From a virus, in IMG/VR virus record IMGVR_UViG_3300043464_001390, positions 1 to 24,480 of that record: a stretch of 24,480 bases of DNA; one strand, written 5' to 3'. A model generated the notes under the pieces. It made no database searches, was not told the origin of the DNA, and saw only the letters and a program-made list of their open reading frames with translations. The translations under genes were made by a program, and so were the position numbers. How positions within the stretch are numbered: the stretch's first letter is position 1; every line of letters begins with the position of its first letter. Shown here piece after piece: positions 202-23,851 of the stretch.

Positions 202-209
202 TATTTATA
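202..209. promoter_or_regulatory. TATTTATA / TATAAATA element in a divergent intergenic gap
   Basis: The plus strand reads TATTTATA, ending 2 bases before the ATG at 212. The minus strand reads TATAAATA, the T4 late promoter consensus, 12 bases before the minus-strand ATG at 189. The same plus-strand octamer also precedes the starts at 6112, 8679 and 23857. Which strand it serves here, or whether it serves both, cannot be settled from sequence alone. Confidence 0.45.
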
Positions 210-211
210 GA

Positions 212-625
212 ATGATGAAACGATATAGTTTATTATACGAATCCAGCATATATGATTATCTAGTGTGGGAACCAACTGGAAAGTTAAAGTATATAGCCGA
301 TGAATTAGATAAAATTCCAAATGATAATAATGTTTTGTATAGAGGAATGTCAGAAAAAGAGTATAATGTTCTTAAGAAGTATGGTAAGGTTACATCCAAA
401 GGAAAGGGTAACACCAGAAATATTGTAGGAAGTTATTTAGCCAGTGATTTTAAATTGGCAGCAAGATTTGCCTTAGTCAATTATAGAGACAAAGGTGAAG
501 GTATTATAGTAGTGGTGGATAAAAATAAATTGCCGGATTTAAAAAATGTAGATCCAGGCAATTACGTCACTAGTTATATACCGATAGAAGCAGTAAACCA
601 AACTATAGATCTAAAAAAGTTATGA
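212..625 (+). CDS. ADP-ribosyltransferase-like protein
   Basis: A 137-residue protein of unproven function that resembles small ADP-ribosyltransferase-fold proteins. Visible signs are a YRG motif at residues 43-45 (the arginine that starts the NAD-binding half in many of these enzymes), a following GKVTSKGKG segment, then YLASDFKLAARFA at 75-87, which looks like the 'S/T... helix with A--FA' segment of the fold, then a beta strand IIVVVD at 98-103. The usual E-x-E catalytic turn is not evident near the C-terminus; the segment ends YIPIEAV. It may therefore be inactive, a KptA/PARP-like variant, or a different fold. Phages such as T4 use ADP-ribosylation (Alt, ModA, ModB) to modify host RNA polymerase and other targets. 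ATGATG at the start leaves residue 1 or 2 as the true start. The stop overlaps the next ATG (ATGA). Confidence 0.6.
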   Translation: MMKRYSLLYESSIYDYLVWEPTGKLKYIADELDKIPNDNNVLYRGMSEKEYNVLKKYGKVTSKGKGNTRNIVGSYLASDFKLAARFALVNYRDKGEGIIVVVDKNKLPDLKNVDPGNYVTSYIPIEAVNQTIDLKKL

Positions 626-801
626 GTAATATTAAATTAACAAAACAACAGGCAGAACAAAAGGTATACGATTTAACCGAAAAACTTCTTTTCGTAAAGA
701 AGGATTTTAAGGATGTAGCTGCAGGCTACAAGGAAAAGATGAAAGAAATTGAAAACGAGATTAAGGCTATTGTAGAAGAAGCTTCTGCTGGTAATTCTTA
801 A
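622..801 (+). CDS. Small coiled-coil protein, unknown
   Basis: A 59-residue protein starting MSNIKLTKQQAEQKVYD and ending in EEASAGNS. The start codon overlaps the stop of the upstream ADP-ribosyltransferase-like gene (ATGA at 622-625), typical of translational coupling. The whole protein is charged and predicted by eye to be helical, with heptad-like spacing of hydrophobic residues, so a short coiled coil is likely. No family is recognised. The stop codon overlaps, tail to tail, that of a possible tiny minus-strand gene. Confidence 0.65.
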   Translation: MSNIKLTKQQAEQKVYDLTEKLLFVKKDFKDVAAGYKEKMKEIENEIKAIVEEASAGNS

Positions 802-896
802 TATTTCTTTTTTTGTTTCTTAGGAAGAGTCTTTTTCTTTTGTAGTTTAATACTTTCCAAAAATAATTTGACCTTTTCTTTAAATTTTTTTGTCAT
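798..896 (-). CDS. Possible tiny basic protein
   Basis: A minus-strand frame of 32 codons from ATG at 896 to TAA at 798-800. The protein begins MTKKFKEKVKLFLESI and its last 14 residues are almost all lysine, glutamine and proline. It faces the 59-residue gene and their stop codons overlap by a few bases (TTAA at 798-801), which often marks real convergent genes. Against it: very short, highly lysine-rich in an AT-rich region, and no ribosome-binding site. It could equally be chance. Confidence 0.35.
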   Translation of the reverse strand: MTKKFKEKVKLFLESIKLQKKKTLPKKQKKKY

Positions 897-919
897 ATAA
901 TTAATTATGAAGATTGATA

Positions 920-948
920 TTGACAAATACTAAAAATTTTTGTAATAT
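920..948 (+). promoter_or_regulatory. Possible sigma70-like promoter
   Basis: A perfect TTGACA at 920-925 is followed by AT-rich -10 candidates: TAATAT at 943-948 with a 17-base spacer, or TGTAAT at 941-946 with 15. It lies in an intergenic gap about 80 bases ahead of the gene starting at 1029, and would give a leader containing the inverted repeats at 961-990. Confidence 0.4.
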
Positions 949-960
949 CACGAAATACTT

Positions 961-990
961 TCTCAGGCTGATAATCTGAGACTATATCAG
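961..990 (+). promoter_or_regulatory. Two mutually exclusive leader hairpins
   Basis: TCTCAG (961-966) pairs with CTGAGA (976-981) around a 9-base loop, while CTGATA (968-973) pairs with TATCAG (985-990). The two stems share bases, so only one can form at a time. No T-tract follows, so this is not a standard terminator. A regulatory role in the leader of the gene at 1029 is possible but unproven. Confidence 0.3.
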
Positions 991-1028
991 TAATATCAAA
1001 CATTAAAAATCAAAAACTAGCTAGTATA

Positions 1029-1232
1029 ATGCAAACTAAAGACAAGAAGAGTAATGTTGAAACCTCAAATGAACGTTATGTTGTTATGAGGAATGGTGCT
1101 AGAGTCTCTGATGAAGAGTACTCAAGTAAGGATGAGGCAACGCCAGAATATGAACATTGGAATCGTGTTATTTCACGATGGCCTGATGGTAGTAAGTTGG
1201 AAATTGTAAATCTAACAAGAAGGAACAAGTAA
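1029..1232 (+). CDS. Small unknown protein
   Basis: A 67-residue protein with a polar N-terminus (MQTKDKKSNVETSNERY) and a compact second half rich in charged and aromatic residues, including YVVMRNGARVSDEEYSSKDE and WPDGSKLEIV. The composition suggests a small folded beta-containing protein. There is no signal peptide, membrane segment or motif I can assign to a family. It is the first gene after the gap containing the possible TTGACA promoter and hairpins, and lies one base upstream of the next gene, so the two form a short operon ending at the terminator at 1472-1504. The start lacks a Shine-Dalgarno sequence. Confidence 0.7.
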   Translation: MQTKDKKSNVETSNERYVVMRNGARVSDEEYSSKDEATPEYEHWNRVISRWPDGSKLEIVNLTRRNK

Positions 1233-1233
1233 T

Positions 1234-1449
1234 ATGGGATTAAGACAAGAAATTAAATCTGCAAACTCCGAATCAGAAATCACAGCTCTTTTAAATAAGG
1301 GTAAAGGATTTGAATTTGCAAGTGAAAACACTAAACATGCTTGGAAATCAACTGCTAAATTCAGACTAGCGGAGTTGTCCTCTAAAGAAGTGGTACAAAG
1401 TCCAGAGAAGCCGGTTCAGTCAAAGAAGTCAGTTAAGAAAACTAAATGA
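1234..1449 (+). CDS. Small unknown protein with lysine-rich tail
   Basis: A 71-residue protein starting MGLRQEIKSANSESEITALL. The body is helical-looking (ALLNKGKGFEFASENTKHAW, then a short RLAEL segment) and the last 20 or so residues are a lysine-rich, proline-containing tail (KPVQSKKSVKKTK). A basic tail could contact nucleic acid, but nothing proves it. AAGGAA about 8 bases before the ATG is one of the few good ribosome-binding sites in the window. It is the last gene before a strong terminator. Confidence 0.7.
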   Translation: MGLRQEIKSANSESEITALLNKGKGFEFASENTKHAWKSTAKFRLAELSSKEVVQSPEKPVQSKKSVKKTK

Positions 1450-1471
1450 GTTAAATATTTGTAAAATGTCA

Positions 1472-1504
1472 AAAGGCACCAATAAAATGGTGCCTTTATT
1501 TTTT
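1472..1504 (+). terminator. Rho-independent terminator
   Basis: A perfect 10-bp stem, AAAGGCACCA (1472-1481) with TGGTGCCTTT (1488-1497), around a 6-base loop, followed by ATTTTTT. It ends the small operon 1029-1449. Confidence 0.92.
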
Positions 1505-1510
1505 GTCTGG

Positions 1511-1539
1511 TTGAGTATTTGAATTGATATATATACTCA
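1511..1539 (+). promoter_or_regulatory. Inverted repeat overlapping a possible promoter
   Basis: TGAGTAT (1512-1518) and ATACTCA (1533-1539) form an inverted repeat with a 14-base AT-rich centre that contains TATATATA (1528-1535). It lies between the terminator and the gene starting at 1546, so it probably holds that gene's promoter. The repeat may be an operator or merely a weak hairpin. TATATATA differs by one base from the TATTTATA element seen elsewhere but lies 10 bases from the start, further than the others. Confidence 0.3.
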
Positions 1540-1545
1540 GTTATT

Positions 1546-1899
1546 ATGTCTAAAAAATATTGTTCAACGACTCTACCATGTGAGTACAATGAGATGGAGA
1601 AGTACATCTTGAAAAATAAGACATCGTTAACATTAAAAGTTGTTGATTCAATTGAGTATGCTTTGAAAAACAAACTTGTTAATGTTGAAGTCTTTAAATT
1701 CAAGAATAGCGAATATATCGTTTTACTTAATGAATCATCATTCAAGGAAAACTTAGATTTTATCTTTAACTATTACATTCAAACAGAACAATATGAGTAC
1801 TGCGAGAATGTAAAGAAAATACAAAAACTACTAGATAAGAAACACAATGAGCAAGAAAAAAGACACAAGCCCAAAGGTTCATCAAAACACAAAGATTAA
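1546..1899 (+). CDS. Unknown 117-residue protein overlapping phoH
   Basis: Starts MSKKYCSTTLPCEYNEMEKY. It looks like a soluble mixed alpha/beta protein: a strand-rich middle (VVDSIEYALKNKLVNVEVFK, EYIVLLNES) followed by a helical, tyrosine-rich second half and a lysine/histidine-rich C-terminal tail. No family recognised. Its last 53 bases overlap the start of phoH in another frame, so the two are probably translated together. The basic tail lies in the overlap, so its composition may partly reflect the constraint of encoding the PhoH N-terminus. Confidence 0.65.
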   Translation: MSKKYCSTTLPCEYNEMEKYILKNKTSLTLKVVDSIEYALKNKLVNVEVFKFKNSEYIVLLNESSFKENLDFIFNYYIQTEQYEYCENVKKIQKLLDKKHNEQEKRHKPKGSSKHKD

Positions 1900-2557
1900 A
1901 GATTCAATTCAAATCAAAAGTGTAAACTTAACCGAAAAACAAAAACAGCTCATAGATGTACTAACAAATAAAAATACAAAGTTGGTTTTCATATCAGGTC
2001 CGGCTGGTACTAGCAAAACATATACATCGGTCATGGCAGGTCTTAGTTTAGTTAATGACAAACGTGTGAGTGAGATTGTATATGTTAGAAGTATAGTTGA
2101 AAGTAGTGATAGTAAATTAGGATTTTTACCAGGCGAAATGGATGAAAAGATGAGTCCATATATTCAACCACTAGTCGATAAGCTTGAAGAGATGCTTCAT
2201 AGAGGTGATGTTGAAAAATTACAAAAGGAAGAACGAATTCATGGTTTTCCAGTAAACTTCTTACGTGGGTTGAGTTGGAATGCTACCGTAATTGTTGCGG
2301 ACGAAGCTCAAAACATGACCAAAAAAGAATTAATAACACTTATAACCCGTGTTGGAGAGTTTAGTAAGTTATATGTGTGTGGAGATCCAGATCAAAGCGA
2401 TATTAATGGAAAGAGCGGATTTTCTGCGGTTATGAATATATTTGACGATCAAGAAAGCAGAGATAATGGTATTCATATTTTTAAATTTGACGAAGAAGAT
2501 ATTGTTAGAAGTGGATTAGTCAAATATATATTAAAAAAGTTAAAAAAGCTAACTTGA
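1847..2557 (+). CDS. phoH: PhoH-family ATPase
   Basis: A 236-residue PhoH-like P-loop ATPase. The Walker A motif GPAGTSKT lies at residues 51-58, the Walker B motif is VIVADEAQN with DEAQN at 152-156, and GDPDQSD at 179-185 corresponds to the usual sensor-like GDxxQ(x)D of the family. The segment SKLGFLPGEMDEKMSPY is also characteristic (the family has LGFLPG...K..PY). The family belongs to the superfamily 1 helicase-like ATPases; in bacteria PhoH is linked to RNA metabolism, and in T4-like marine phages it is a common auxiliary gene whose exact role is unsettled. The length is close to that of other phage copies. The first methionine is the only one before residue 63, so the start, inside the upstream gene, is secure. 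No good Shine-Dalgarno; translation is probably coupled. Confidence 0.93.
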   Translation: MSKKKDTSPKVHQNTKIKDSIQIKSVNLTEKQKQLIDVLTNKNTKLVFISGPAGTSKTYTSVMAGLSLVNDKRVSEIVYVRSIVESSDSKLGFLPGEMDEKMSPYIQPLVDKLEEMLHRGDVEKLQKEERIHGFPVNFLRGLSWNATVIVADEAQNMTKKELITLITRVGEFSKLYVCGDPDQSDINGKSGFSAVMNIFDDQESRDNGIHIFKFDEEDIVRSGLVKYILKKLKKLT

Positions 2558-2561
2558 TTGA

Positions 2562-2569
2562 TAATTATA
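2562..2569 (+). promoter_or_regulatory. TAATTATA element before the first fibre gene
   Basis: TAATTATA differs by one base from TATTTATA and ends 4 bases before the ATG at 2574. There is no Shine-Dalgarno sequence. Candidate late promoter by its position. Confidence 0.35.
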
Positions 2570-2573
2570 TATT

Positions 2574-3935
2574 ATGGCAGTAGTAATATCCAATAGAGGT
2601 AGATTAATATCAGATTTAACATCAGTAGCTAATCTGAACAATGATGATTTATTTATCATTCAATCTGTAAATGCAAGTACCAATTCCACAAGAAAAGCTA
2701 CTATCTCACAATTATCACAAAAGGTATTGGGTAGTTTAAGTTCTTATTCTACCACCGTGAAGTTTAGTAGCACCGGTAACGAATTTACAGGTGCATTTTA
2801 TAATGCAAATGGTAATACATCAAATTTGTATGATGTAACAATACGTAATAGTTTATCTATTGGTACAGGTGTTACTGCTACTATAAGTCCTACAAATCTT
2901 ACATTCGCTCCTATTAATGGTGCGTTGTTTACAAAAAAGATTACAAATACAATTGGTGGTATTACAGGAAGTGCATCTACTGGATTTACAGGCAGTTTGA
3001 AAGGTAAATTGACTGGTCCAGTAACAGGTAATGTTACTGGAAATGTTGTTGGTAATTTAACAGGTAATGTTGCAGGTAATGTTACTGGAAACGTTGCTGG
3101 TAATGTTACTGGCAATATTACTGGCAATGTTACTGGTGATATTTATTCACCAACATCCATGTTGGTACTAGACAATGGTACGGGTGTTCCAAAGAGTGCA
3201 AGATTTTATGGAACTTCATCATTTGCTACTTGGGCCGAAAATGTTGTTGGCGGTAATACTGGTATTAATGCAACACAGGCAAGATCATATGTTACTACAT
3301 CCATGAATTCAGGTGGAGGTGTTGCGAATACACTTCCAAAGTTTAGTGGTACTAGTAAGTTGGGTTTATCATCTATAAATGATAATGGTACATCAGTAAG
3401 TATTTCTACAGCGTTGACTGTTGCAACCAAAATATCTGCTGGAGGTATTAGTGGTAGTTTTTATGGTGGTTCTGGTGGGTATAAAACACAAGGTACTAAA
3501 TCAGTAAGTTTCTGGGGTACAGGCAGTCATGCTGTAACTGCTAGTTATGTGATTTCAACGATACCATTGGAAAATACAAGTACCGCTACATTATCCGGCT
3601 TTTTAGGTGGAACAAACGAAGGTGGTGTTGGTGCTTATTGTTATGCTATCACACATGGATTTGGTGTAACTCCATCGTGGATAAGATCTACTTTGTATTG
3701 TGTCACTGGTGATGCGGGATATGTGACTGGAGATGAAGTTGATTTGAATGCTATAGAACAAGATGAACTAGATGCCAATGTGTTTTCAACATGGACCAAT
3801 TCGACTTATGCGGCTATATCTGTCGCTGGAAACACTGGTTTTGCAAATAATTTATACATTCCAAATAAAATAGGTGGCACATGGACATTGATCGTCCCGG
3901 CTAATTGGAAATATAAAATTAGAGTTTTGAAATAA
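2574..3935 (+). CDS. Tail-fibre-like structural protein 1
   Basis: A 453-residue fibre-like protein. The N-terminal 50 residues (ISDLTSVANLNNDDLFIIQS, then RKATISQL) look like the short anchoring module found at the start of many phage tail-fibre and baseplate-attached proteins. Residues 144-190 are twelve consecutive tetrapeptides of form G-N-V-T/A, a fibrous beta shaft by inference. Further on comes the motif SVSFWGTGSHAVTASY, then a C-terminal domain of about 95 residues containing THGFGVTPSWIRSTLYC and GDEVDLN, matching the tip of the next gene product. It is therefore probably an adhesin or baseplate decoration that binds a host surface structure. No chaperone or protease domain is seen. 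It follows phoH by 16 bases and may have its own promoter. Confidence 0.8.
   Translation: MAVVISNRGRLISDLTSVANLNNDDLFIIQSVNASTNSTRKATISQLSQKVLGSLSSYSTTVKFSSTGNEFTGAFYNANGNTSNLYDVTIRNSLSIGTGVTATISPTNLTFAPINGALFTKKITNTIGGITGSASTGFTGSLKGKLTGPVTGNVTGNVVGNLTGNVAGNVTGNVAGNVTGNITGNVTGDIYSPTSMLVLDNGTGVPKSARFYGTSSFATWAENVVGGNTGINATQARSYVTTSMNSGGGVANTLPKFSGTSKLGLSSINDNGTSVSISTALTVATKISAGGISGSFYGGSGGYKTQGTKSVSFWGTGSHAVTASYVISTIPLENTSTATLSGFLGGTNEGGVGAYCYAITHGFGVTPSWIRSTLYCVTGDAGYVTGDEVDLNAIEQDELDANVFSTWTNSTYAAISVAGNTGFANNLYIPNKIGGTWTLIVPANWKYKIRVLK
3003..3143 (+). repeat. Tandem 12-base repeat coding for GNVT units
   Basis: About twelve in-frame 12-base units, each coding Gly-x-x-x and mostly GNVT or GNVA. 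Units differ at third positions and at a few codons, so the array is not a recent perfect expansion, but it remains prone to slippage and could vary in length between relatives. Confidence 0.85.
3501..3541 (+). repeat. Shared fibre segment, copy 1
   Basis: This stretch, coding SVSFWGTGSHAVTA, is nearly identical in DNA to 4980-5020 in the next gene; only two differences are seen in the first 40 bases. The conservation at base level, beyond the flanking sequence, suggests recent duplication or recombination between the two fibre genes. Confidence 0.85.
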
Positions 3936-3947
3936 AATACTATTATA

Positions 3948-3955
3948 TACTTATA
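3948..3955 (+). promoter_or_regulatory. TACTTATA element before the second fibre gene
   Basis: TACTTATA, one base from TATTTATA, ends 4 bases before the ATG at 3960. There is no Shine-Dalgarno sequence. Candidate late promoter. Confidence 0.35.
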
Positions 3956-3959
3956 ACAT

Positions 3960-5420: not shown

Positions 5421-5424
5421 AATA

Positions 5425-5456
5425 TTGACATCTTACTATTTTTGATTATATATATT
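5425..5456 (+). promoter_or_regulatory. Possible sigma70-like promoter for hsp20
   Basis: A perfect TTGACA (5425-5430) is followed by TATATA (5449-5454, 18-base spacer) or TATATT (5451-5456, 20-base spacer). It lies 4 bases after the fibre gene stop and about 100 bases before hsp20. Unlike the fibre and baseplate genes, hsp20 has a leader and a good ribosome-binding site, which suggests a different class of promoter, probably early or middle. Confidence 0.45.
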
Positions 5457-5477
5457 CTTAGATGGTGATCTTATGGA

Positions 5478-5538
5478 CACTATCTACTATAGTGCTCGAG
5501 TGAGGCTATTAGGTTAATAAGTTCAACAGAATTATTAA
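5478..5538 (+). promoter_or_regulatory. Structured leader of hsp20
   Basis: CACTAT (5478-5483) pairs with ATAGTG (5489-5494) around a 5-base loop. TTAATAA (5514-5520) pairs with TTATTAA (5532-5538), an A/T-only stem that ends one or two bases before the ribosome-binding site AGAAAGG (5540-5546). The weak second stem beside the Shine-Dalgarno could act as a heat-melting element, as leaders of bacterial small heat-shock genes often do, but the SD itself is not visibly paired. Suggestive only. Confidence 0.3.
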
Positions 5539-5553
5539 AAGAAAGGTAAATAT

Positions 5554-6036: not shown

Positions 6037-6056
6037 TAGTCAATCATGGTTATGTT

Positions 6057-6090
6057 AAACCCCGCTAGATTAAAAATAGCGGGGTTTTTT
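6057..6090 (+). terminator. Rho-independent terminator after hsp20
   Basis: An 11-bp stem, AAACCCCGCTA (6057-6067) with TAGCGGGGTTT (6077-6087), around a 9-base loop and followed by more T. It is unusually GC-rich for this window. An open frame reads through it from 6046 into the next gene, but the hairpin shows that the real start of that gene is at 6112. Confidence 0.95.
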
Positions 6091-6100
6091 AATATTCAAA

Positions 6101-6108
6101 TATTTATA
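6101..6108 (+). promoter_or_regulatory. TATTTATA element
   Basis: TATTTATA ends 3 bases before the ATG at 6112, just after the hsp20 terminator. No Shine-Dalgarno sequence. One of four exact copies, all immediately before gene starts. Confidence 0.5.
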
Positions 6109-6111
6109 TAT

Positions 6112-7368: not shown

Positions 7369-7674
7369 ATGATATACTTTTTAATATTTGTTTTACTAAT
7401 TTCGTTAGTGACCAACATTTTTTTGTTCATCTCGTTGCGCCGTGCATTTTTTACGATAGACATACTTGAAGCATGGTTGGTTGACTTTAAAGGATTAGTA
7501 AATAATGTATACAAAAAGTTGAAGGATGTTGATAATCGTGGTATCTTTGAAAAAGATGACGATGTTGGATTTATGTTTTCTGACATCGTTAATATTATAA
7601 AGATAACCAACGAAAGGATAAATGATGAGTCCAGTAATCCAGCCAACATTGATGAAAAAACCAACGAAAATTAA
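7369..7674 (+). CDS. Small membrane-anchored protein
   Basis: A 101-residue protein with one N-terminal transmembrane segment (about residues 3-23, IYFLIFVLLISLVTNIFLFI), followed by RR, so an N-out/C-in anchor is likely by the positive-inside rule. A soluble helical domain follows with VDNRGIFEKDDDVGFMFSDI. I recall similar segments (DN.GIFE.DDDVGF.F..I) in other T4-like environmental phage genomes, of unknown role; this is unverified memory. Its last 53 bases overlap the start of the late sigma gene, so the two are probably translated together. Confidence 0.7.
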   Translation: MIYFLIFVLLISLVTNIFLFISLRRAFFTIDILEAWLVDFKGLVNNVYKKLKDVDNRGIFEKDDDVGFMFSDIVNIIKITNERINDESSNPANIDEKTNEN

Positions 7675-8620
7675 GAAGAAGCTTGTTAAAACAACAAGTA
7701 AATCTAAAGTCACTAAGGCTTCTAAGAAGCCAGAAATTTCTATTTCAGTTGTACTGAAGAAAGATATCAAGAAAAAGAAAGTACTTAATAGTAAAAAAGA
7801 AAAAACACCAAAGTTTAAAAAAACATCAGAGATAGTTGTTCCTAGATCTAATGTTGTTCCAAAAGCTGAAATTGATCCCAATGAATCGGATGAAATCACA
7901 TTGGTTGATGAAAATGAACCAAAGAAAAGAAGACGCGGTAGAAACAAAAAAGAAAAGATTTATTTCAGTAAGGCTACTGAAGAAGCTATTGTTAAATATA
8001 ATGAAGAGGAAGATATTCATATACGAAACAATATTTATGAAACAAAAATCAAGTATAGTTTTGAAAAGTTAGTTGAGAATATTTTTAACACGTTTAAATT
8101 CACTTATTTTGATAATAGTCCATTGGAAATTCAAAAAGAAACAGTATCACATTTAGTTTCAAATATTCATAAATTCCAATCAGGTAAAGGTAAAGCATTT
8201 AGCTATTTCAGTATTGTTGCTAAGAATTACTTGATATTCCACAACAATACAAATTATAAACGATTCAATCAACACGTAGATATTTCCGAAACTCCTGGTG
8301 AATCATCTGTATGTTTGCAAACTGAAGATGCCCATCATAAGAATGTTCAAACACAAGAATTGATGAAATTGCTCGTGGATTATTGGGAAAAGAATATTCG
8401 TAAGATTTTCAATAAAGAAAAAGATTTGAATATCGCATATGCCGTTATAGAGTTATTTAGAGGATGTGATAGATTGGAAACATTTAACAAAAAAACATTA
8501 TATCTTTATATTAGAGAAATTAGTGGATGTAAAACACAACAAGTCACTAAGGTTATTAATAAGATGAAAAACTATCAAAACTTCATAATGCAGAACTATC
8601 TAAACCGAGGAGTTATTTAA
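7622..8620 (+). CDS. gp55: Late-transcription sigma factor, gp55-like
   Basis: A 332-residue protein whose C-terminal two thirds match T4-type gp55, the sigma factor that lets host RNA polymerase recognise late promoters with the sliding clamp. The core begins at about residue 113 (YFSKATEEAIVKYN). The typical signs are RNNIYETKIKYSFEKLVENI, then FTYFD, then HKFQSGKGKAFSYFSIVAK (A192-K201), then FHNNTNYKRF, a sigma-2-like helix pair. Residues 1-110 are a lysine-rich low-complexity arm (KIKKKLVKTTSKSKVTK, KKRRRGRNKKEK), absent from T4 gp55 (185 residues), which could bind DNA or the clamp. GAAAGGA 4 bases before ATG is a strong ribosome-binding site and supports the 7622/7625 start. Terminated by a hairpin 18 bases downstream. 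Confidence 0.85.
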   Translation: MMSPVIQPTLMKKPTKIKKKLVKTTSKSKVTKASKKPEISISVVLKKDIKKKKVLNSKKEKTPKFKKTSEIVVPRSNVVPKAEIDPNESDEITLVDENEPKKRRRGRNKKEKIYFSKATEEAIVKYNEEEDIHIRNNIYETKIKYSFEKLVENIFNTFKFTYFDNSPLEIQKETVSHLVSNIHKFQSGKGKAFSYFSIVAKNYLIFHNNTNYKRFNQHVDISETPGESSVCLQTEDAHHKNVQTQELMKLLVDYWEKNIRKIFNKEKDLNIAYAVIELFRGCDRLETFNKKTLYLYIREISGCKTQQVTKVINKMKNYQNFIMQNYLNRGVI

Positions 8621-8637: not shown

Positions 8638-8665
8638 AACCACCTAAGAAATTAGGTGGTTTTTT
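8638..8665 (+). terminator. Rho-independent terminator after gp55
   Basis: AACCACCTAA pairs with TTAGGTGGTT around a short GAAA loop (GAAA is a stable tetraloop), followed by five T. It separates the sigma gene from the baseplate operon. Confidence 0.95.
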
Positions 8666-8666: not shown

Positions 8667-8674
8667 TATTTATA
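8667..8674 (+). promoter_or_regulatory. TATTTATA element at the head of the baseplate operon
   Basis: TATTTATA ends 4 bases before the ATG at 8679 and lies just after the terminator. No Shine-Dalgarno. Strongest candidate for the late promoter of the baseplate genes. Confidence 0.55.
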
Positions 8675-12335: not shown

Positions 12336-12351
12336 TTATATATATAAGCAT

Positions 12352-12828: not shown

Positions 12829-13242
12829 ATGGCTAAAAAAGCGTTAGGTTTAAAATTACCAATTACTCTGGGTCAAGATGGATACTTTCAGACCAATTCT
12901 TTGACTGCGGATCAATTGTCTTCAAATATTCAAAACCTATTGTTGACCAAACCAGGCGAAAGACGATTCAATAATGCATTTGGTTCAAGCTTATATGGAT
13001 TATTGTTTCAAATGACCGACTTGGATGTATCAAAAGAAATCATTGTGGATGCGGTTCAACGTGATGTTGATAAATTTGTTAATGGTGTGATTGTAAATGA
13101 TGTAAAAGTTCAATTATCTAATGAACAAAATTTCACTGGAACAATTAATAATGATAAGAATAAGATATTTATAAGCGTCGTATTTACTTATAATAATACG
13201 ACCGCAACGACGGATGTAGCAATTTCAAACCCTAGAATCTGA
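12829..13242 (+). CDS. gp25: Baseplate wedge subunit gp25
   Basis: A 137-residue protein of the GPW/gp25 family (T4 gp25 is 132 residues). The family's central signature is plain: IQNLLLTKPGERRFNNAFGSSLYGLLF at residues 34-60, with KPGER at 41-45 and FGSSL at 51-55. Next come helix DLDVSKEIIVDAVQRDVDKF and strands VNDVKVQLS and KIFISVVFTY. In T4 gp25 forms part of the wedge at the sheath-baseplate junction and starts sheath assembly together with gp6, and the equivalent protein is found in all contractile systems. The stop overlaps the gp6 start (TGATG at 13240-13244), a sign of translational coupling. Confidence 0.95.
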   Translation: MAKKALGLKLPITLGQDGYFQTNSLTADQLSSNIQNLLLTKPGERRFNNAFGSSLYGLLFQMTDLDVSKEIIVDAVQRDVDKFVNGVIVNDVKVQLSNEQNFTGTINNDKNKIFISVVFTYNNTTATTDVAISNPRI

Positions 13243-15221
13243 TGTCAGAAATAATTAACAAAACGTTTAGAACAAACACAAAGGATGTTAACTATGTGAA
13301 TAGGGATTTCACATCTTTAAAACAACAACTTATTGACTTCACCAAGCAGTATTATCCGTTGTCATATAGAGATTTTAGTGAAAGTTCTCCAGGTCAGATT
13401 TTTATTGAACAAGCCGCATATGTTGGTGATGTATTATCATATTATACAGATCAACAATTTTTAGAAAGTTTTATCCAATTTGCTGTTGATCGTAGAAACA
13501 TTATTAACTTGGCTAAATTCCTCGGTTATAAGCCAAAGGTGTCATCTGCATCATCAACCGATGTTGATATATTTCAATTAATACCTTCTATACAAACAAC
13601 CAATAACGAATATATACCAGATGAACGTTATGCGTTGATATTAAGACCATTTACTCAACTATCAAGCATAAGTGGGGTCAATTTTATAGTTGAAGAAAGT
13701 GTAGATTTTACACAAGACACATTATTCTCACCAAGAGAGATTAGTGTATTCAATAGAGATGCAACTGGCGCACCACAATTCTTCTTACTTAAGAAATCAA
13801 CCAAAGCTTATTCCGGCACCATCGTAACTAAACAAGTAAGTGTTAATGCAGCTACTCCATTTTTGTCGATTAAGTTGGATGAAACAAATGTATTGAAAGT
13901 TGTTAGTGTGGTTGATAGCAATAATAACAACTATTACGAAGTTGACTATCTAGCACAAGATACAATTCCACTAAAAGTTGATAATGTTCCACTTACAAAT
14001 CAAACATTGTCAAAGTATAGAGGCGAAACTCCAAAAATTCTTAAATACTTAAGAACTGAAAAAAGATTCGTAACAACAATCGACGAGAATAATTTTACAT
14101 ATATTCAATTTGGTGCAAATACTGAGAATTTTGAAAACACGATTGTAGTTCCAAATCCAACAAATGTTGGCGTTGCATTATCTAATCTTAAGAATCTAAA
14201 TATTAGCTTAGATGGTACAAATGTACTAAAGAGCAATTCTTATGGTGTGTCTCCTTCCAACACAACATTAACAATCACATATATAATCGGTGGTGGTGTT
14301 AATTCAAATGTAAATTCAGGTGATATAAGTAAAATATCAGCAACATCTTTTCAAAATGACACAACTGGTTTGACTGATAGTGAAATATCATTGTTGAACA
14401 ACATTAAAAACTCTTTGAGAGTAAATAACAATGAAGCTTCAACTGGTGGAGATGATGCAGAATCGGATGAAGAAATCAGACAAAATGCTATTCTGAACTT
14501 TTCTTCTCAAAACAGAATGGTTACTCAAGATGACTTTTTGTTAAGAGTATATGCTCTTCCTCCAGATTTGGGAAACATAGCCAAAGCTTATGTTCAAAGT
14601 AACCTAACACAACAAGTTACATACAATGGATTAGTTTCTGGTATAACAACCATTGATAATAATCTAAATGTCGATTTAAATCCAATTAATCCATTGGATA
14701 GAAGAAAGTTTTTGGAATCAAATAATCCATTTACAAACAATTTATACTTATTGGGTTATGATGCAAATAAAAATTTGACAACGATCAATCAAGCTACACT
14801 TCAAAACTTGATTACTTACGTAAAAAATTATAGAATATTAACCGATAAGATCAATATAATTGATGGATTTATAGTCAACATCGGTGTGGAATTCAAAATA
14901 TCAGTATTCCAAGGATTTAATAAACGTGATGTTTTAAATAATTGTATTCAATCTGTTAAATCATTTTTTGAAATTGATAAGTGGAGTTTCAATCAACCAA
15001 TCAATCTCAGTCAATTAAATTTTGAAATTATGAAGGTTGAAGGAGTCCAATCTGTTACTGATATTAAGGTAAAAAATTTAACCATTGATGATGGCAATTA
15101 TTCTCCAGTTGCTTATAACATCAGTATCGCCACTCAAAACAATATTGTGTATCCTTCAAAAGATCCATCAGTATTTGAGGTTAAATATCCAAACTCTGAC
15201 ATAAAAGGATTGGTAGTCTAA
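13242..15221 (+). CDS. gp6: Baseplate wedge subunit gp6 (baseplate J-like)
   Basis: A 659-residue protein, essentially the length of T4 gp6 (660). The N-terminus has the expected pattern: VNYVNRDFTSLKQQLIDFTK, YYPLSYRDFSESSPGQIFIE, QAAYVGDVLSYYTDQQF, then FAVDRRNIINLAKFLGYKP at about 82-100. The C-terminal half carries the baseplate-J like part: ASTGGDDAESDEEIRQNAI, MVTQDDFLLRVYALPPDLG, then FVNIGVEFKI and a final INLSQLNFEIMKVEGVQSVTD. In T4, gp6 dimers form the inner ring joining the wedges and contact gp25, gp53 and gp7. Its position after gp25 is the standard arrangement. No Shine-Dalgarno; coupled to gp25. Confidence 0.95.
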   Translation: MSEIINKTFRTNTKDVNYVNRDFTSLKQQLIDFTKQYYPLSYRDFSESSPGQIFIEQAAYVGDVLSYYTDQQFLESFIQFAVDRRNIINLAKFLGYKPKVSSASSTDVDIFQLIPSIQTTNNEYIPDERYALILRPFTQLSSISGVNFIVEESVDFTQDTLFSPREISVFNRDATGAPQFFLLKKSTKAYSGTIVTKQVSVNAATPFLSIKLDETNVLKVVSVVDSNNNNYYEVDYLAQDTIPLKVDNVPLTNQTLSKYRGETPKILKYLRTEKRFVTTIDENNFTYIQFGANTENFENTIVVPNPTNVGVALSNLKNLNISLDGTNVLKSNSYGVSPSNTTLTITYIIGGGVNSNVNSGDISKISATSFQNDTTGLTDSEISLLNNIKNSLRVNNNEASTGGDDAESDEEIRQNAILNFSSQNRMVTQDDFLLRVYALPPDLGNIAKAYVQSNLTQQVTYNGLVSGITTIDNNLNVDLNPINPLDRRKFLESNNPFTNNLYLLGYDANKNLTTINQATLQNLITYVKNYRILTDKINIIDGFIVNIGVEFKISVFQGFNKRDVLNNCIQSVKSFFEIDKWSFNQPINLSQLNFEIMKVEGVQSVTDIKVKNLTIDDGNYSPVAYNISIATQNNIVYPSKDPSVFEVKYPNSDIKGLVV

Positions 15222-15222: not shown

Positions 15223-17118
15223 ATGCATAAATTTATATATCCAGCTAAAGATACATACATCAACAACTCATCAACCTTTGAAGATAAAAACTTTGGAATT
15301 GATGAGATATTGGAAATTTATGCATCCAACAAAGGATCTGAGACGATCTTCACCACACCAAATTGGCACGCCGCTCCACAAACTACATCTTCTTATGGAA
15401 ATGAAGGTTGGTTAGCATATAACACAAGTTCTCTTTTTATATACTCTGGTAGTACATGGAGAAAGTTCAGTCTTACATCCGATACAATCTCAGGCACCAG
15501 CTTCATTGCAAATTTCTCAGGAAGATTGAGTAACGTAACTGCCTCTACAAGAAAGAGATTGTTTGTGTCTGGATCAGCAGGATATACATCTGGTTCATTC
15601 AGTGGAAGTTTCAACTTTGTAAACAATAATTTTTATGCAAATGGTCGCTGGACCACTGGAAGTTTTTCTGGATCAATAAAAACAGGAGCAACATTTACCA
15701 GACTAAACGTTGGTCCAAGAAACTATACAATATCCCCACTTACCGCATCTGTTACTGGAACAGGAAGTTTCAAGAATCTAATTGGCACAATTGTGGGTAG
15801 ATCAAATACAGGTTTACCATGTTGTACTGGATTTTATAGACCAGTACGTGCATTTTTAAGTGGATCATTCACTGGAAGTTTTTCATCATCCAATTTCAAT
15901 GGATATATACAGACCGTGACAGCATCACGTTTGTATAGAGCCGATGTTACTAATTTTACAGGATACTTTGATGGAAAATATACTGGTACGTTTACAAGAC
16001 CATCTACCGCTACATATTTATTGTATCCAGAATTTTCAAGAACCATAATTAAGTTTGATTTAACCGAGTTAAGTCAATCTATTGCAAGTGGACAAATTTC
16101 AAGTTCTTATATGAAATTTTCATTGAACTTGAAGGCTGCTGGTGCTAGAAATCTTCCACTAGACTATAAGATTTACGCATATCCGTTAAGTGCAAGTTGG
16201 GAAAATGGTAATGGTAGATATGCCAATGGTGGTAGTGAGATGGGAGCTAGTTGGGATTATAGAAATTATTCTGGTAGCGGATTGTGGTATCGTAATTTGC
16301 AAACCCGCAGTTATCAACAGGTTGATTACTTACTAACCTCATCTTATGCCACTGCAAGTTTTAAAAATCAAGGTGGAACTTGGTATTATAACGTTCCATC
16401 AACATATACCAACAAACGTAATTGGATTTGTAGTTCATCTTTCTTCCCAGGATTAAGAAATTCAAGACTGATTGCCAGCCAATCTTTCTCATATGGATCA
16501 CAAAGTGATATAAACATGGATATAACCACGATGGTAAGATCTTGGTTGTGTGGATGTGTTCCAAATAATGGATTAATATTGTTAACCTCGTTTGAATTGA
16601 GCACACCTCCATTGGATTATACTGATGGTCTATTACAATTCTTCAGTAAAGAATCTAACACTATATACTCTCCATATTTGGATGTAGCTTGGGAGGATGT
16701 AGTCTTTAAAACTGGTAGTTTAGCTCCTCTCAGTGGGTCTACAGATAATTTGATTAATCTTCAGTATTTGAAGGACGCTTACAAAGCTGGTAGTATTCCA
16801 AAGGTATTTGTATTTGGTAGAGATAAGTATCCATTAAAAACATTTAATAAAGCTTATCAACAACCAGTCATGGTTACTCCTAAGTACTTACCACGAACAT
16901 CCTACTATATGATTAAGGATGCGGAATCTGAAGAAGTATTAGTAGATTTTGATAGATATACAAAGTTGAGTTGTGATGCAACCAAAGGAAATTACTTTGT
17001 AATAGATACAACAGGACTACCACAAGAAAGATATTTCAAAATACTTATTAAGGTAGAATATAGTGATGGTACCGTTGATATTGCGGATACTGGCAAAATA
17101 TTCAAGATAGTAAGATGA
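15223..17118 (+). CDS. Fibre-like protein with a split DNRLRE/CBM96-like domain
   Basis: A 631-residue beta-rich protein. The start matches the first strands of DNRLRE/CBM96-like domains (IYPAKDTYINNSSTFEDKNF, then ILEIYASNKG, residues 5-38). The rest of that domain resumes at R273 (RTIIKFDLTELSQSI; KIYAYPLSASWENGNGR; GGTWY; QSDINMDITTMVRSWL; NNGLILLTSFE; IYSPYLDVAWED, to about 494). The 230 residues between are Gly/Ser/Phe repeats (GSFSGSF, SGSFTGSF) and a CCTGFY stretch, as if a shaft or loop had been inserted. The final 135 residues form another beta domain. DNRLRE/CBM96 modules bind polysaccharide in cell-wall and surface proteins, so this could be a host-recognition decoration on the wedge. 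It lies between gp6 and the gp7-like gene, 1 base after gp6. Confidence 0.75.
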   Translation: MHKFIYPAKDTYINNSSTFEDKNFGIDEILEIYASNKGSETIFTTPNWHAAPQTTSSYGNEGWLAYNTSSLFIYSGSTWRKFSLTSDTISGTSFIANFSGRLSNVTASTRKRLFVSGSAGYTSGSFSGSFNFVNNNFYANGRWTTGSFSGSIKTGATFTRLNVGPRNYTISPLTASVTGTGSFKNLIGTIVGRSNTGLPCCTGFYRPVRAFLSGSFTGSFSSSNFNGYIQTVTASRLYRADVTNFTGYFDGKYTGTFTRPSTATYLLYPEFSRTIIKFDLTELSQSIASGQISSSYMKFSLNLKAAGARNLPLDYKIYAYPLSASWENGNGRYANGGSEMGASWDYRNYSGSGLWYRNLQTRSYQQVDYLLTSSYATASFKNQGGTWYYNVPSTYTNKRNWICSSSFFPGLRNSRLIASQSFSYGSQSDINMDITTMVRSWLCGCVPNNGLILLTSFELSTPPLDYTDGLLQFFSKESNTIYSPYLDVAWEDVVFKTGSLAPLSGSTDNLINLQYLKDAYKAGSIPKVFVFGRDKYPLKTFNKAYQQPVMVTPKYLPRTSYYMIKDAESEEVLVDFDRYTKLSCDATKGNYFVIDTTGLPQERYFKILIKVEYSDGTVDIADTGKIFKIVR

Positions 17119-17119
17119 T

Positions 17120-17593: not shown

Positions 17594-17594
17594 T

Positions 17595-20500: not shown

Positions 20501-22040
20501 TATTAATTCATTTGCGATTGATGATAAAGAAAGAGAGTATAAAAACGCACGTTATGTTTGGAGTTTTGATACTCCGGTGAGTTTGTACGCATCAACACCA
20601 ATTAAGTTGATACCAAATCAAAACTTATATTACAATGATAATTTTCAAGCTGTTAATTTCCCAGCTCAAATTGAAACATTACCTTATCCAATTTGTAAAC
20701 CAATGGAAGTTACTAAGTTTCCATATCAATTTGAGAAGTTATCTTTGAAACAATCAATTAACTCAAATAAATTTGGGCCAAATTATAGAAATAATAGTAA
20801 GATAAATAAGATTGATATGATACTAGATACAAATTTAGTACCATCTGAACAATCCTCATACACAGAAGATGTAATTGGTGCCGATTCAAATTTGGTTGGA
20901 TATTATATTTCTCCGTATCAATATTTGAATACAAAGATTGAAGATTTCTTGGGTAAAGAAGGTATTACAGATGTAATTGGAAATCCAGCTTATTTGACTA
21001 AACAAAGTTATCCAGAATTGAAAACACTTCAAGCTGAATTTGCTAAGTTAAATGAAAAGTATGTGTATCCACAGGAATTTTTGAGTACTTATAAGTTTTA
21101 TATTGATTTTTCAATCTTTGACTTTATAAAGAAGTTGACTCCTCAAAGAGCTACATTAAAACGAGGTATATTGTTAGAACCTTCTATATTTGAAAGACAA
21201 AAATTCAATTATAGAAATGTGGATGTAACTGCTTTGGATCCAGATAATCCACTTGCATCTTCATCAAGTTTAATCACGTTTAATAATTATGCTACATTTA
21301 CGTCTAGTTTGATTAATACAAATGATACGTCAAGCTATGGTATTGTAACACTATTTGAAACAAATGATATTGATACAGATAAAGATCAGTATAATTATTC
21401 AATGTTTGAAATCAAACCATCATATGATGTAAGAGATTTCGTATATAGCAAATATGGTAAGGATATTGGTATTGATAACAACGGAGCATATATTAGAGAT
21501 TTGCCTAAGGTCAGTCAAAATAGTTACTACTTGATGACCAATAACAAGCTTCCAAGTGTAGTTGGATTTACATCTAGTTACTTTGAAGTTCAAATCGCCG
21601 GATCTGGGTCTGTAACTGGAAGTAGATTTTATAGAGATTTATACAAGGGTGACATGAATTCAGGTTATTCTAAGAGACACTTGAGTAAGTTTGTATTTGC
21701 TGGTTCAAGAAATAGATATCGTGCCGTGAGTGGTTCTATAACCAGAATCACGAATGGTGTAAAATTAGATAAAAGCAGAGGTTCTTTAACATATTACCCA
21801 TTTACCAAAGGTAAAAATGATTATACCAGAACCGTCAACCGAAACGGACTACCAAATGGATCATTACCAGTAATTTCTATTCCTGGATTCTTGTCTATGG
21901 AAGTTACAAGTAGTACATTCCCTAAATATGGTACATTAACTGGATCTGTTGGTAAACCTAAATCAATATTTGTACAATTGCCAATAACCGCATCTATATA
22001 TACCAGCGCAAGCTTGGATATGTACATAATGAATTTATAA
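17595..22040 (+). CDS. Giant baseplate wedge protein, gp7/gpI-like
   Basis: A 1481-residue protein, longer than T4 gp7 (1032). Residues 40-160 are an N-terminal beta domain. At about 570-705 lies a gpI/gp7-like region: LLNQLPEYLKNDPQSEDYI, MVGHFFDNILVYIKKFPRA, YIEELLNSFNWNVDNV, then NRFANNMSGIYKTKGTSTSY and ELVRSIFGV, the KGT...lFGV helix pair typical of tail protein I/Afp12-type wedge proteins. Residues 715-970 look like a concanavalin/LamG-type sandwich (DDIVYMSKFTNNEYIKFNY, LECSFRFKS, VDWEIYIKK, VYTILL, KFIGNIDKVKVYLDPVS). The C-terminus is beta-rich with aromatic residues. Position after gp6 supports the wedge assignment, since gp6 and gp7 bind each other in T4. The LamG-like insert could bind glycans. 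The central assignment is inferred from motif and synteny. Confidence 0.7.
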   Translation: MPYNYLTINESGLNSGLVSASYFDVELQSLYEQQYSTNEIFFGDSDDDLIELSLYNSGQEPLTFNRVVPSVTYSVIQGDYLDINGQSKNYRVLNPNTNITRFGDNILLHPQFDLKFNQVSPGLYYLLYNPTRNVAGNSINKLVIKEISPSRTELRLSFAFNQNSSASNRLSAIKITSFADKKYLFLQLEDNLINIIDNNPISQNFFSEKQNLNVIKICQNLGFKNEADLTQFIIDSYVGFDRVLVLNRTENSDVLSYQSVKFTGIAQQLKNFIYQYNDTEFSADEIQLAFKTIVTKVSQDRIVQKTSLNAVDLQDAINLFVQIIYTDWLQPQTNTLLANYSERFFGLYKNALNFDNGNLVKILSHTSYYNAIDGVDNVQVKLDAPLPTEYNIKSTCWISNISIAPLYFKVNIYADSVSRKVYLNGVNFSVQVPTISPTNDRFADLDKNTIFYAQSKLKEKVNDLLINYDNFDNFINYSSAELRSKIAKNKISQYSSYDTSKEQISQQADSANTAISSSLSEKFDSITQNQIDLLNTFDEYESYLFFNTSSIDDKIQDGVSYDRDNYDSLLNQLPEYLKNDPQSEDYIKFTSMVGHFFDNILVYIKKFPRAYPINYNDNNDYPKNYIEELLNSFNWNVDNVKFEKSDITQLLFNASEYTGSLSSSYFDYAKSILNRFANNMSGIYKTKGTSTSYELVRSIFGVSADLIQPVEYGSSDVLVNRQVFYDFDDIVYMSKFTNNEYIKFNYTGSEFTLQSSGLPYSQSATPGTGITQSFREVFTGLSALECSFRFKSNNYEYLDRIPLIKKYRNNKVDWEIYIKKATQQVSGQLIFNFQPQGTDSNSIVLQELPLLNGDVYTILLTRDIAPGVFDTPSTTINQYPLTQSVTSSAANKFAPYVYTLAINQYYGSQLNFTAKKNSTILYDHNRYFSSGSYHVGNFSSSVKFIGNIDKVKVYLDPVSADNFDEHSYNINSFAIDDKEREYKNARYVWSFDTPVSLYASTPIKLIPNQNLYYNDNFQAVNFPAQIETLPYPICKPMEVTKFPYQFEKLSLKQSINSNKFGPNYRNNSKINKIDMILDTNLVPSEQSSYTEDVIGADSNLVGYYISPYQYLNTKIEDFLGKEGITDVIGNPAYLTKQSYPELKTLQAEFAKLNEKYVYPQEFLSTYKFYIDFSIFDFIKKLTPQRATLKRGILLEPSIFERQKFNYRNVDVTALDPDNPLASSSSLITFNNYATFTSSLINTNDTSSYGIVTLFETNDIDTDKDQYNYSMFEIKPSYDVRDFVYSKYGKDIGIDNNGAYIRDLPKVSQNSYYLMTNNKLPSVVGFTSSYFEVQIAGSGSVTGSRFYRDLYKGDMNSGYSKRHLSKFVFAGSRNRYRAVSGSITRITNGVKLDKSRGSLTYYPFTKGKNDYTRTVNRNGLPNGSLPVISIPGFLSMEVTSSTFPKYGTLTGSVGKPKSIFVQLPITASIYTSASLDMYIMNL

Positions 22041-22086
22041 TTACAAATTTCGATAAAAAAACAAAACTTAGAGATAATTATTATAT

Positions 22087-22725
22087 ATGGCATATTTAGA
22101 CAACAACGTTCTTACGGTAAACGCGATACTTACTAAGAAGGGTAGAGAAATCCTAGCAAAAACCGGTGGTTTAAACATCACTGCATTTGCTTTAGCTGAT
22201 GATGAAATCGACTATACTCAATTCAACCCAAATCATCCACTTGGTAGCGCATACTATGATATAGCTATTCGTAATACACCTGTGATGGAACCAATTACCG
22301 ATGAGTCTCAATTGATGAAATATAAGTTGGTAACATTGAATGATGGTGTAACTGCGGTGCCTACAATCAATTTGAACATTTCTTCTATAAACGTACCAAG
22401 AGATTTTACTGGAGAAATATTGTTGAGTCCAAGTACTAATCCAACTTACAACGTAACATTGGGTTATACCGCAATATTATCAAATAAGAACGTAGGCACG
22501 TTGGTTGTAACTGAAACTAATAGTATCAATTCTTCTACAGCAACTATCCCAACATTTGCTGGCGATTTGGCATCCAATACTTCACAGGCTGTAGTTGGTA
22601 ATAAGTTTAGATTTATTCCAAACGCTTCTCTAGCAAAGACTACCACAACAAACATTACAATCATTGGTAATGAAAGTGGTGGTAATACCGCAATCAACGT
22701 TACCGTAACAGTACCAACAACTTAA
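22087..22725 (+). CDS. Conserved structural protein of unknown role
   Basis: A 212-residue protein starting MAYLDNNVLTVNAILTKKGR. The first 110 residues (ITAFALADDEIDYTQFNP; HPLGSAYYDIAIRNTPVM; LMKYKLVTLND) match a protein I remember from many uncultured tailed phages beside baseplate genes, with no known function; this is unverified. Residues 110-212 look like an immunoglobulin-like beta domain (ISSINVPRDFTGEI, TYNVTLGYTAIL, TTTNITIIGNESGG, TVTVPTT). A gap of 46 AT-rich bases separates it from the large wedge gene; the start has no Shine-Dalgarno. Likely a minor tail or baseplate component. Confidence 0.75.
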   Translation: MAYLDNNVLTVNAILTKKGREILAKTGGLNITAFALADDEIDYTQFNPNHPLGSAYYDIAIRNTPVMEPITDESQLMKYKLVTLNDGVTAVPTINLNISSINVPRDFTGEILLSPSTNPTYNVTLGYTAILSNKNVGTLVVTETNSINSSTATIPTFAGDLASNTSQAVVGNKFRFIPNASLAKTTTTNITIIGNESGGNTAINVTVTVPTT

Positions 22726-22731
22726 TAAATT

Positions 22732-23826
22732 ATGATATTTAGTCAATTCACAAAAGATGACATCGTAGCGGGTAGAATTAACCAAGTTTCATCTGGATTA
22801 TTTGGATCTGGGGATTTGCAGGTTAGTCAATCTCTTTTTACAACATCATCTACACAGGGTCGTCAATTGACCGGATCATCACCTTATGATGTTAAGAATG
22901 GTCAATACTACCTGGATGTTTATTATAGCAGTGAACAATATTTTGCAGTCGCATATGGCGACTATGCAAATACAGGTAGTTCACAATATGATAGTCCTAA
23001 CTATTCTGTGCCTGTATTGACCAATGAAACAAAGGTCATTTATACACAATACAAGAATACATTGCTACAACCAGGCGATACACTATTTAGTTTTGCTTCT
23101 GGTAGTGTAGATAATCCAGTTGATAGTGAAGCACTATTTGCAGTTAACTTTTCAGCCGATAAGTTTAAAGATCAAGTTGACCCAGGTCAAATTCAATTAA
23201 ATTTAAGCGGTGCAAATGGAATTTATTCTTTCATCGATGATTCACAAGTTGTCAATAAGTCTCTTAGTGTATATAATATAATTTCAGGTTCTATCATCAA
23301 TGGTGTACCAACTCCATATTTAAAGTCTGGTACTGTACAATATGAAGGAATTGGTTTGTTTTATCCAACAAATGGCGTAGTTGTTTTAAATGCCATAAAT
23401 TTACAAAAACGTGTAGGAATTAATTCTCAAATTGCAAATAGAGCAGGTTTTCCAAATTCAACATCTACAAACGTAGATGGTCACTGGAGAGTATGGACAA
23501 GAGACTTTTTTAAGGCACTAAAAGGAACAAGCAAATTGATGAGTGTACGAAAGAGTGAATTTGTTCCATCCACAAATTATTTCGTTCGCGTCAAGAATAA
23601 AGAGTTTAATTATAGTAACAACCCAACATTTGTATCAGATGGTACTGATGGACAAACAAAAGGTACAATCATTTATCAAGATTTGATAAATAATCCTCGT
23701 ACTTATATTACATCCGTTGGCTTATACGATACTAACAACGAACTATTAGCAATTGGTAAGTTGAGTCGTCCAACACAAAAATCGTTTGATAATGAATTGT
23801 TGATTAAAGTTAGAATTGACTTTTAA
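22732..23826 (+). CDS. Structural protein of unknown role
   Basis: A 364-residue protein starting MIFSQFTKDDIVAGRINQVS. The start (FTKDDIVAGR..QVSSGLF) and the segments YYLDVYYSSEQYFAVAYGDY and VIYTQYKNTLLQPGDTLFSF resemble proteins I remember downstream of gp7-like genes in environmental T4-like phages, annotated only as structural. Residues about 150-180 (LFAVNFSADKFKDQVDPGQI, then YSFIDDSQ) resemble a segment of the next, partial protein. C-terminal beta-rich region ends TSVGLYDTNNELLAIGKLS. No membrane segments or catalytic motifs. Probably a baseplate or fibre-attachment component; exact role unknown. It begins 6 bases after the previous stop. Confidence 0.75.
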   Translation: MIFSQFTKDDIVAGRINQVSSGLFGSGDLQVSQSLFTTSSTQGRQLTGSSPYDVKNGQYYLDVYYSSEQYFAVAYGDYANTGSSQYDSPNYSVPVLTNETKVIYTQYKNTLLQPGDTLFSFASGSVDNPVDSEALFAVNFSADKFKDQVDPGQIQLNLSGANGIYSFIDDSQVVNKSLSVYNIISGSIINGVPTPYLKSGTVQYEGIGLFYPTNGVVVLNAINLQKRVGINSQIANRAGFPNSTSTNVDGHWRVWTRDFFKALKGTSKLMSVRKSEFVPSTNYFVRVKNKEFNYSNNPTFVSDGTDGQTKGTIIYQDLINNPRTYITSVGLYDTNNELLAIGKLSRPTQKSFDNELLIKVRIDF

Positions 23827-23843
23827 TTATCAATAAATCTTCC

Positions 23844-23851
23844 TATTTATA
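23844..23851 (+). promoter_or_regulatory. TATTTATA element
   Basis: TATTTATA ends 5 bases before the ATG at 23857 and is the fourth exact copy in the window. AGG directly before the ATG is too close to serve as a Shine-Dalgarno. Confidence 0.5.

Follow-up and report, generated by a model that had tools for sequence, protein, structure and literature searches.

In bacteriophage T4, late transcription relies on gp55 together with gp33 and gp45. Leaderless mRNAs are known in phages and bacteria, including those of lambda cI and the giant phage phiKZ. In the excerpt of a review on T4, the late-promoter octamer extends from −13, roughly a helical turn ahead of the transcription start, with no conservation at −35, and variants are given for KVP40, 44RR, S-PM2, and Aeh1 (PMC2988020). 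An excerpt on cyanophages gives NATAAATA (PMC2984593), and a general remark in another excerpt states that phage transcripts are often leaderless (PMC5312081). According to excerpts of a 2015 study of uncultivated Far-T4 phages, the T4 core transcription-regulation genes were undetected and transcription patterns might differ (PMC4360716). Here we analyzed the octamer TATTTATA in a 24,480-nt stretch of viral DNA (positions 1–24,480 of IMG/VR record IMGVR_UViG_3300043464_001390; this whole stretch is called the window) and in its relatives. TATTTATA is probably the late-promoter −10 element of this T4-superfamily group, and transcription would usually start at the ATG or close to it, giving a leaderless or nearly leaderless mRNA for the first gene.

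The initial annotation had placed exact plus-strand copies of TATTTATA at four sites, and they were confirmed with gaps of 2, 3, 4, and 5 bases to the ATGs at 212, 6112, 8679, and 23857, respectively. The one-mismatch copies that it gave 4 bases before the ATGs at 2574 (TAATTATA) and 3960 (TACTTATA) were also correct. However, its statement that no exact plus-strand copy lies inside a gene did not hold, as one occurs at 13166–13173 within an open reading frame (ORF). The features of the window are as follows.

194–201, minus strand: candidate late −10 variant TACTTATA, seen in the sequence 4 bases before ATG 189 of the minus-strand ORF 1–189 (open at the window edge).
202–209, plus strand: proposed late −10 element TATTTATA, 2 bases before ATG 212 and 5 before a second ATG at 215.
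2562–2569, plus strand: candidate late −10 variant TAATTATA before ATG 2574.
3948–3955, plus strand: candidate late −10 variant TACTTATA before ATG 3960.
6060–6090, plus strand: terminator-like hairpin and T-run, read from the sequence, just 5′ of the 6101 octamer.
6101–6108, plus strand: proposed late −10 element TATTTATA before ATG 6112.
7622–8620, plus strand: gene for a probable phage late sigma factor with a gp55-like region 2 and a second helical domain, the proposed reader of the octamer.
8640–8665, plus strand: terminator-like hairpin and T-run, read from the sequence, directly 5′ of the 8667 octamer.
8667–8674, plus strand: proposed late −10 element TATTTATA before ATG 8679.
12339–12346, plus strand: candidate late −10 variant TATATATA, 5 bases before ATG 12352.
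13166–13173, plus strand: exact TATTTATA inside the gp25-like ORF 12829–13242, 76 bases before ATG 13242; excluded from the leaderless sites.
22075–22082, plus strand: tentative late −10 variant TAATTATT (2 mismatches), read from the sequence, 4 bases before ATG 22087.
23844–23851, plus strand: proposed late −10 element TATTTATA before ATG 23857.

Both strands of the window contained nine exact copies of TATTTATA against 5.25 expected, four of them on the minus strand inside ORFs, and nine copies were reached in 8 of 100 shuffles; therefore, the window alone proves little. With one mismatch allowed, 122 copies were found against 103 expected (reached in 4 of 100 shuffles). The baseplate gene of the window (13242–15221) matched 23 phage records, the best being Microcystis phage Mel-JY01 (42%), with further matches in LR756508, an uncultured 484 kb phage (38%), and Flavobacterium phage immuto (34%). 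Scans of IMG/VR yielded 80 loci with the baseplate gene and 75 with PhoH. These loci and the window together gave 991 unique ATG starts, among which TATTTATA was the most enriched 8-mer in positions −25 to −1, with 126 copies against 2.5 expected from coding sequence; 120 of the 126 copies began at −15 to −11 from the ATG. The start codons following the octamer were ATG (124), ATT (7), GTG (2), and TTG (2), as counted by a script that favors ATG if more than one codon fits. Genome-wide counts in the 303, 131, and 105 kb relatives ranked TATTTATA first or second, the other rank being held by the motif shifted one base, with 35, 18, and 19 copies against 0.58, 0.18, and 0.39 expected, respectively; the enrichment thus holds in the 303 kb relative, whose GC content is 41%. 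In 48 more distant loci (44–71% identity in the sigma protein), 36 copies against 3.2 expected and 50 against 1.6 were present in the 60 upstream bases. A 50 kb stretch of Stenotrophomonas phage CM1 contained too few octamer matches to judge.

The octamer was also kept before the orthologues of individual genes; the following counts are of unique upstream sequences without other dereplication. For gene 23857, the exact octamer occurred at −13 in 23 of 23 upstream sequences. An exact octamer was found near the ATG in 26 of 27 sequences for gene 6112 (26 of 27 with up to one mismatch as well), 5 of 6 for 2574 (6 of 6), 14 of 26 for 8679 (26 of 26), 2 of 9 for 3960 (9 of 9), and 0 of 30 for 12352 (26 of 30). 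The 202–209 site was scored at ATG 215, where 15 of 17 orthologous upstreams had the exact octamer at −12 to −14 and 16 of 17 had it with up to one mismatch. This site and TACTTATA at 194–201 lie back to back on opposite strands, so that two start codons 26 bases apart each have a candidate promoter. For gene 22087, 12 of 25 orthologues had up to one mismatch and 3 of 25 were exact, at −9, while the immuto orthologue had an exact copy at −27. Orthologues of gene 1546 carried the octamer near the ATG in 2 of 26 cases (22 of 26 with up to one mismatch); 1546 is not claimed as a site because the nearest copy in the window itself, TATATATA at 1528, is 18 bases from the ATG. The mechanical ORF start of gene 6112 is 6046, upstream of the terminator-like hairpin; the octamer of the orthologues precedes 6112 instead. 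None of the orthologues of 215, 1546, 2574, 3960, 6112, 8679, 12352, 22087, and 23857 was scored with a Shine–Dalgarno (SD) sequence. Near the ATGs of the other 15 window genes, no exact octamer was found, and several of these have an SD sequence instead (orthologues of 1234, 16/20; 5554, 18/19; 15223, 20/26). The in-gene copy at 13166–13173 also lies at −76 from gp6 in the relatives G001, G003, and G006; in Mel-JY01, the distance is −51. Either coding constraint or a gp6 promoter inside the upstream gene may account for this. At 918–946, TTGACA and TAATAT with a 17-base spacer lie at least 83 bases ahead of ATG 1029, and a small inverted repeat comes next (by eye); this is a possible sigma70 promoter with a leader.

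T4 and the window's group both have an octamer without a −35 element before structural genes and a phage-encoded sigma factor (a probable one in the window) nearby in the genome. Six of the eight bases are identical on the same strand, and the two central bases differ (TT here, AA in T4). The initial annotation had taken the motif for the reverse complement of the T4 octamer, which is unnecessary, as TATTTATA is the same-strand TATAAATA with these two bases changed. We rejected this reading: on the sense strand, TATAAATA was not the leading upstream octamer in the window's group (15 against 1.5 expected in −25 to −1, scattered), the enriched octamer there being TATTTATA and not the T4 consensus. 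The variants of KVP40, 44RR, S-PM2, and Aeh1 differ from T4 at other positions than TATTTATA does. When T4 was analyzed with the same script, TATAAATA was found 12 times against 0.46 expected in −60 to −1, at −22 to −36; five upstream copies of TATTTATA were also present, which does not fit simply. Thus, TATAAATA in T4 lies 22–36 bases before the ATG, with room for a leader, whereas TATTTATA here lies mostly at 11–15.

The Rhodothermus phage RM378 has a homologue of the sigma protein and an upstream octamer, TATTTAAA (27 against 0.41 expected), the 7-base core of which is most often at −13 (11 cases). It differs in the seventh octamer base, in a wider spread of distances, and in its thermophilic cultured host. 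In immuto (Immutovirus; 150 of 160 kb read), TATTTATA was the top upstream octamer (22 against 0.26 expected in −60 to −1) and preceded the terminase, gp20, sheath, and tube genes. However, its copies ranged from −9 to −41, with 18 of 22 at −18 or further and 4 of 22 at −9 to −12. A further upstream motif of immuto around TATCAATA (13 against 0.2 expected) lies within a longer repeated string and is possibly another promoter class. In Mel-JY01, TATTTATA was enriched (14 against 1.2 expected in −60 to −1), including before gp20 and the tube gene, but nine copies were at −39 to −51; of 16 genes with the octamer in the upstream 120 bases, nine had GGAG, AGGA, or GAGG in the leader (by eye). No exact octamer preceded the Mel-JY01 terminase and gp23 genes within the stretch examined. 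Repeated upstream strings, ACAACCTAACAGGA and CTTGCATAC, were also seen in this phage. The octamer is therefore not bound to the ATG everywhere: it lies further upstream in Mel-JY01, in immuto, and before a minority of genes in the window's group, with SD sequences in several of the leaders. The leaderless mRNAs of lambda cI and phiKZ resemble the present case in having a −10 element directly before the AUG and no SD sequence; in contrast, promoter placement would here make an entire late class of one phage group leaderless, and apparently an early class too.

The logo of 94 sites with the octamer near the ATG showed no −35 element: beyond the octamer and the base next to it, upstream information reached 0.21 bits at most. 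The base just before the octamer was conserved (A 67%, C 29%). Given the T4 geometry and an octamer set against the ATG, transcription would start at the ATG and the mRNA would be leaderless. Over 223 dereplicated starts, octamer distances peaked at −12 (51) and −13 (29), fell to 2, 2, 3, and 0 at −16 to −19, and rose again from −20. This two-humped distribution may mean that leaders of 3–6 bases, which exceed what leaderless initiation allows yet cannot hold an SD sequence, are disfavoured. Substitutions showed codon periodicity from the octamer-adjacent ATG onward and none before it (607 pairs, 201 sequences), and the start-codon calls are therefore right. A second promoter class, TTGACT/A, peaked at −34 to −38 from the ATG, with 75 copies in these five positions against about 2 per position at −100 to −50. 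By eye, many of 44 listed TTGACT sites had a −10-like hexamer 5–9 bases before the ATG, and a few resembled coding sequence. This class, which was found before many small genes in G006, G001, and G003, is likely early; its sigma70-like spacing would imply little or no leader as well and supports the geometry. The placement of both classes against the ATG suggests mRNAs with no leader or almost none, and the late-promoter interpretation of the initial annotation is supported by these sequence tests.

The protein encoded at 7622–8620 is conserved in immuto, Mel-JY01, and LR756508 (35–42%), and its RM378 homologue is a hypothetical protein starting at 17032 (hmmsearch E 2.2e-13). The predicted model of residues 99–332 had a pLDDT of 82. 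Among the 50 VIA-align matches listed for it, most were sigma-factor chains, with sigmaE region 2 at Z 9.8 (rmsd 2.5 over 91 residues), although helical folds often yield middling Z values; the model is thus predicted to contain the region 2 fold of the sigma-70 family. No PHROGs, Pfam, or NCBIfam family was found for the window protein; phmmer against the PDB gave only a MecA match (E 0.041), and a profile search gave nothing. For the immuto and LR756508 homologues, matches to sigma PHROGs had E values no better than 0.62 and 0.19, respectively. Because an initial prediction for the full-length protein was poor (pLDDT 62), its matches carry little weight; the best viral one, UPI00000381BA (264 aa, E 1.7e-3), equals the RM378 homologue in length. 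The annotated RM378 sigma factor was rejected as the counterpart (hhalign P 0.25). A search of bacterial and archaeal genomes with the sigma profile gave five loci, in metagenome-assembled genomes of unrelated groups, and the photosystem family PF00124, sought as a host clue, was found in 0 of 12 records. The product is a probable late sigma factor. We infer that it reads TATTTATA, a proposal helped by RM378 and weakened by LR756508.

In the proposed mechanism, TATTTATA, with A or C before it and without a −35 element, would be recognized by an RNA polymerase whose sigma factor is encoded by the phage and is most likely the 7622–8620 product. The octamer would usually be placed so that transcription begins on the A of the start codon or within about 0–3 bases of it. 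Translation of the leading gene in a late unit would then use an mRNA with no leader or almost none, and downstream genes would rely on SD sequences or coupling. In a minority of late genes, including those for tail sheath and tail tube in two relatives, the octamer lies further upstream, leaving room for an ordinary leader, which in several cases has an SD sequence. The late timing is suggested by gene content: exact copies precede orthologues of virion structure genes (tube, sheath, and also 8679), and the checked replication-gene orthologues have no exact octamer, one RecA having TAGTTATA.

Several observations weigh against this mechanism. LR756508 showed no octamer enrichment in the 100 of 484 kb read, despite its sigma homologue. 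Foldseek alone gave a best E of 0.064 for the 99–332 model. The hhalign comparison with seven gp55 sequences was co-linear but weak (P 0.0053, Prob 6.9%), while none of 40 column shuffles scored as high (best shuffle, P 0.015). Sliding-clamp family PF02916 was found in 0 of 12 records, in a search whose control was also found nowhere. T4 spacing applied here sets the start on the ATG at a distance of 13 and 1–2 bases inside it at 12 and 11; because these shorter distances occur, initiation has to lie on the ATG or a little closer to the octamer than T4 spacing would put it. In the window's group, SD sequences were found at 0 of 94 starts with a near octamer and 8 of 27 with a far one (Fisher P 2.5e-6), against 115 of 831 starts without an octamer (control zone, 61 of 831). 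This contrast favors the promoter, but part of it is unavoidable, as a near octamer occupies the place of the SD sequence. A rival view is that the octamer is a late promoter whose mRNAs are not leaderless, either because they start elsewhere or because upstream read-through supplies a leader, so that its proximity to the ATG would not determine how translation begins. In favor of this view, the octamer in the same group also works, as far as can be deduced, at −20 to −60 with leaders. However, with any known sigma geometry, a −10 element 3–7 bases from the ATG leaves a few leader bases at most. The tightly kept distance before gene 23857, the T-run before 26 of 94 sites, and the like placement of the TTGACT/A class also speak against leaders, and we consider this view unlikely.

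A translation-initiation signal with no promoter function, such as an AU-rich site bound by the ribosome or S1 where the host makes little use of SD sequences, was the alternative named in the initial annotation. It accords with the narrow ATG distance of most copies in the window's group and with the lack of SD sequences in those genes. However, among dereplicated starts, an exact octamer near the ATG occurred in 0 of 600 with a same-strand gap to the upstream gene of 10 bases or less, a zero to which overlap with the upstream coding sequence may contribute, and in 14 of 92, 47 of 229, and 34 of 263 with gaps of 11–20, 21–60, and more than 60 bases, respectively. With the upstream neighbour on the opposite strand, the same classes gave 1 of 35, 0 of 4, 10 of 32, and 12 of 94. 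T-runs in −37 to −13 were present at 26 of 94 starts with the motif against 66 of 831 without it (P 1.5e-7). In the window, terminator-like hairpins stand just 5′ of the 6101 and 8667 sites. Judged from these counts, the octamer marks the starts of transcription units.

The far octamers likewise argue against a translation signal. The octamer precedes late genes at −18 to −51 in immuto and Mel-JY01. It lies before the tube gene at −33 in G001, −31 in G003, −29 in immuto, and −44 in Mel-JY01, and before the sheath gene at −59 in G001, −41 in G003, and −33 in immuto, with no exact copy before sheath in G006 or Mel-JY01; the tube and sheath leaders of G001 and G003 (−31 to −59) contain an SD sequence. 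For gene 8679, the octamer of the window's group stood at −12 or −13, with one mismatch in the G001 copy, and that of immuto at −21; Mel-JY01 had none. The lack of exact copies before the checked replication-gene orthologues, and the many TTGACT genes set against the ATG by a different promoter, are also contrary to a translation signal, which we regard as improbable; the promoter interpretation is supported by the comparisons that separate the two. Orthologues of gp23 (major capsid) had no exact octamer in any case, within the stretch examined. Chance in an AT-rich genome, with which the window count alone is compatible, can practically be dismissed in view of the approximately 50-fold enrichment at a fixed position in relatives, the 41% GC relative included, and the near-complete conservation at orthologues.

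For the wider group including RM378 with its related octamer, the chances appear about even that genes heading transcription units are leaderless as a rule, late ones through TATTTATA and the phage sigma factor and early ones through TTGACT/A and a host-type sigma70, except for a few, sheath and tube among them, that keep SD leaders, and that the late sigma factor combines a gp55-like domain with a second domain replacing a separate gp33. Searches of the open-access full-text literature, judged by their listings, showed no description of TATTTATA as a phage late promoter; a report elsewhere is possible. The window is related to RM378, and, without assuming its membership in Far-T4, the analysis supplies a late-promoter consensus, a candidate late sigma factor, and a placement rule. 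Start-codon calls in many metagenomic contigs would improve. The relation between promoter position and translation mode is testable because the phages form a natural series, with one promoter at various ATG distances with or without a leader, and the prediction is open to experiment because RM378, Mel-JY01, and immuto have named hosts. In a large, mostly uncultured group of T4 relatives, the eight-letter switch of the late genes adjoins the start codon, and their messages would probably begin at the start codon, without a leader for the ribosome to grip.

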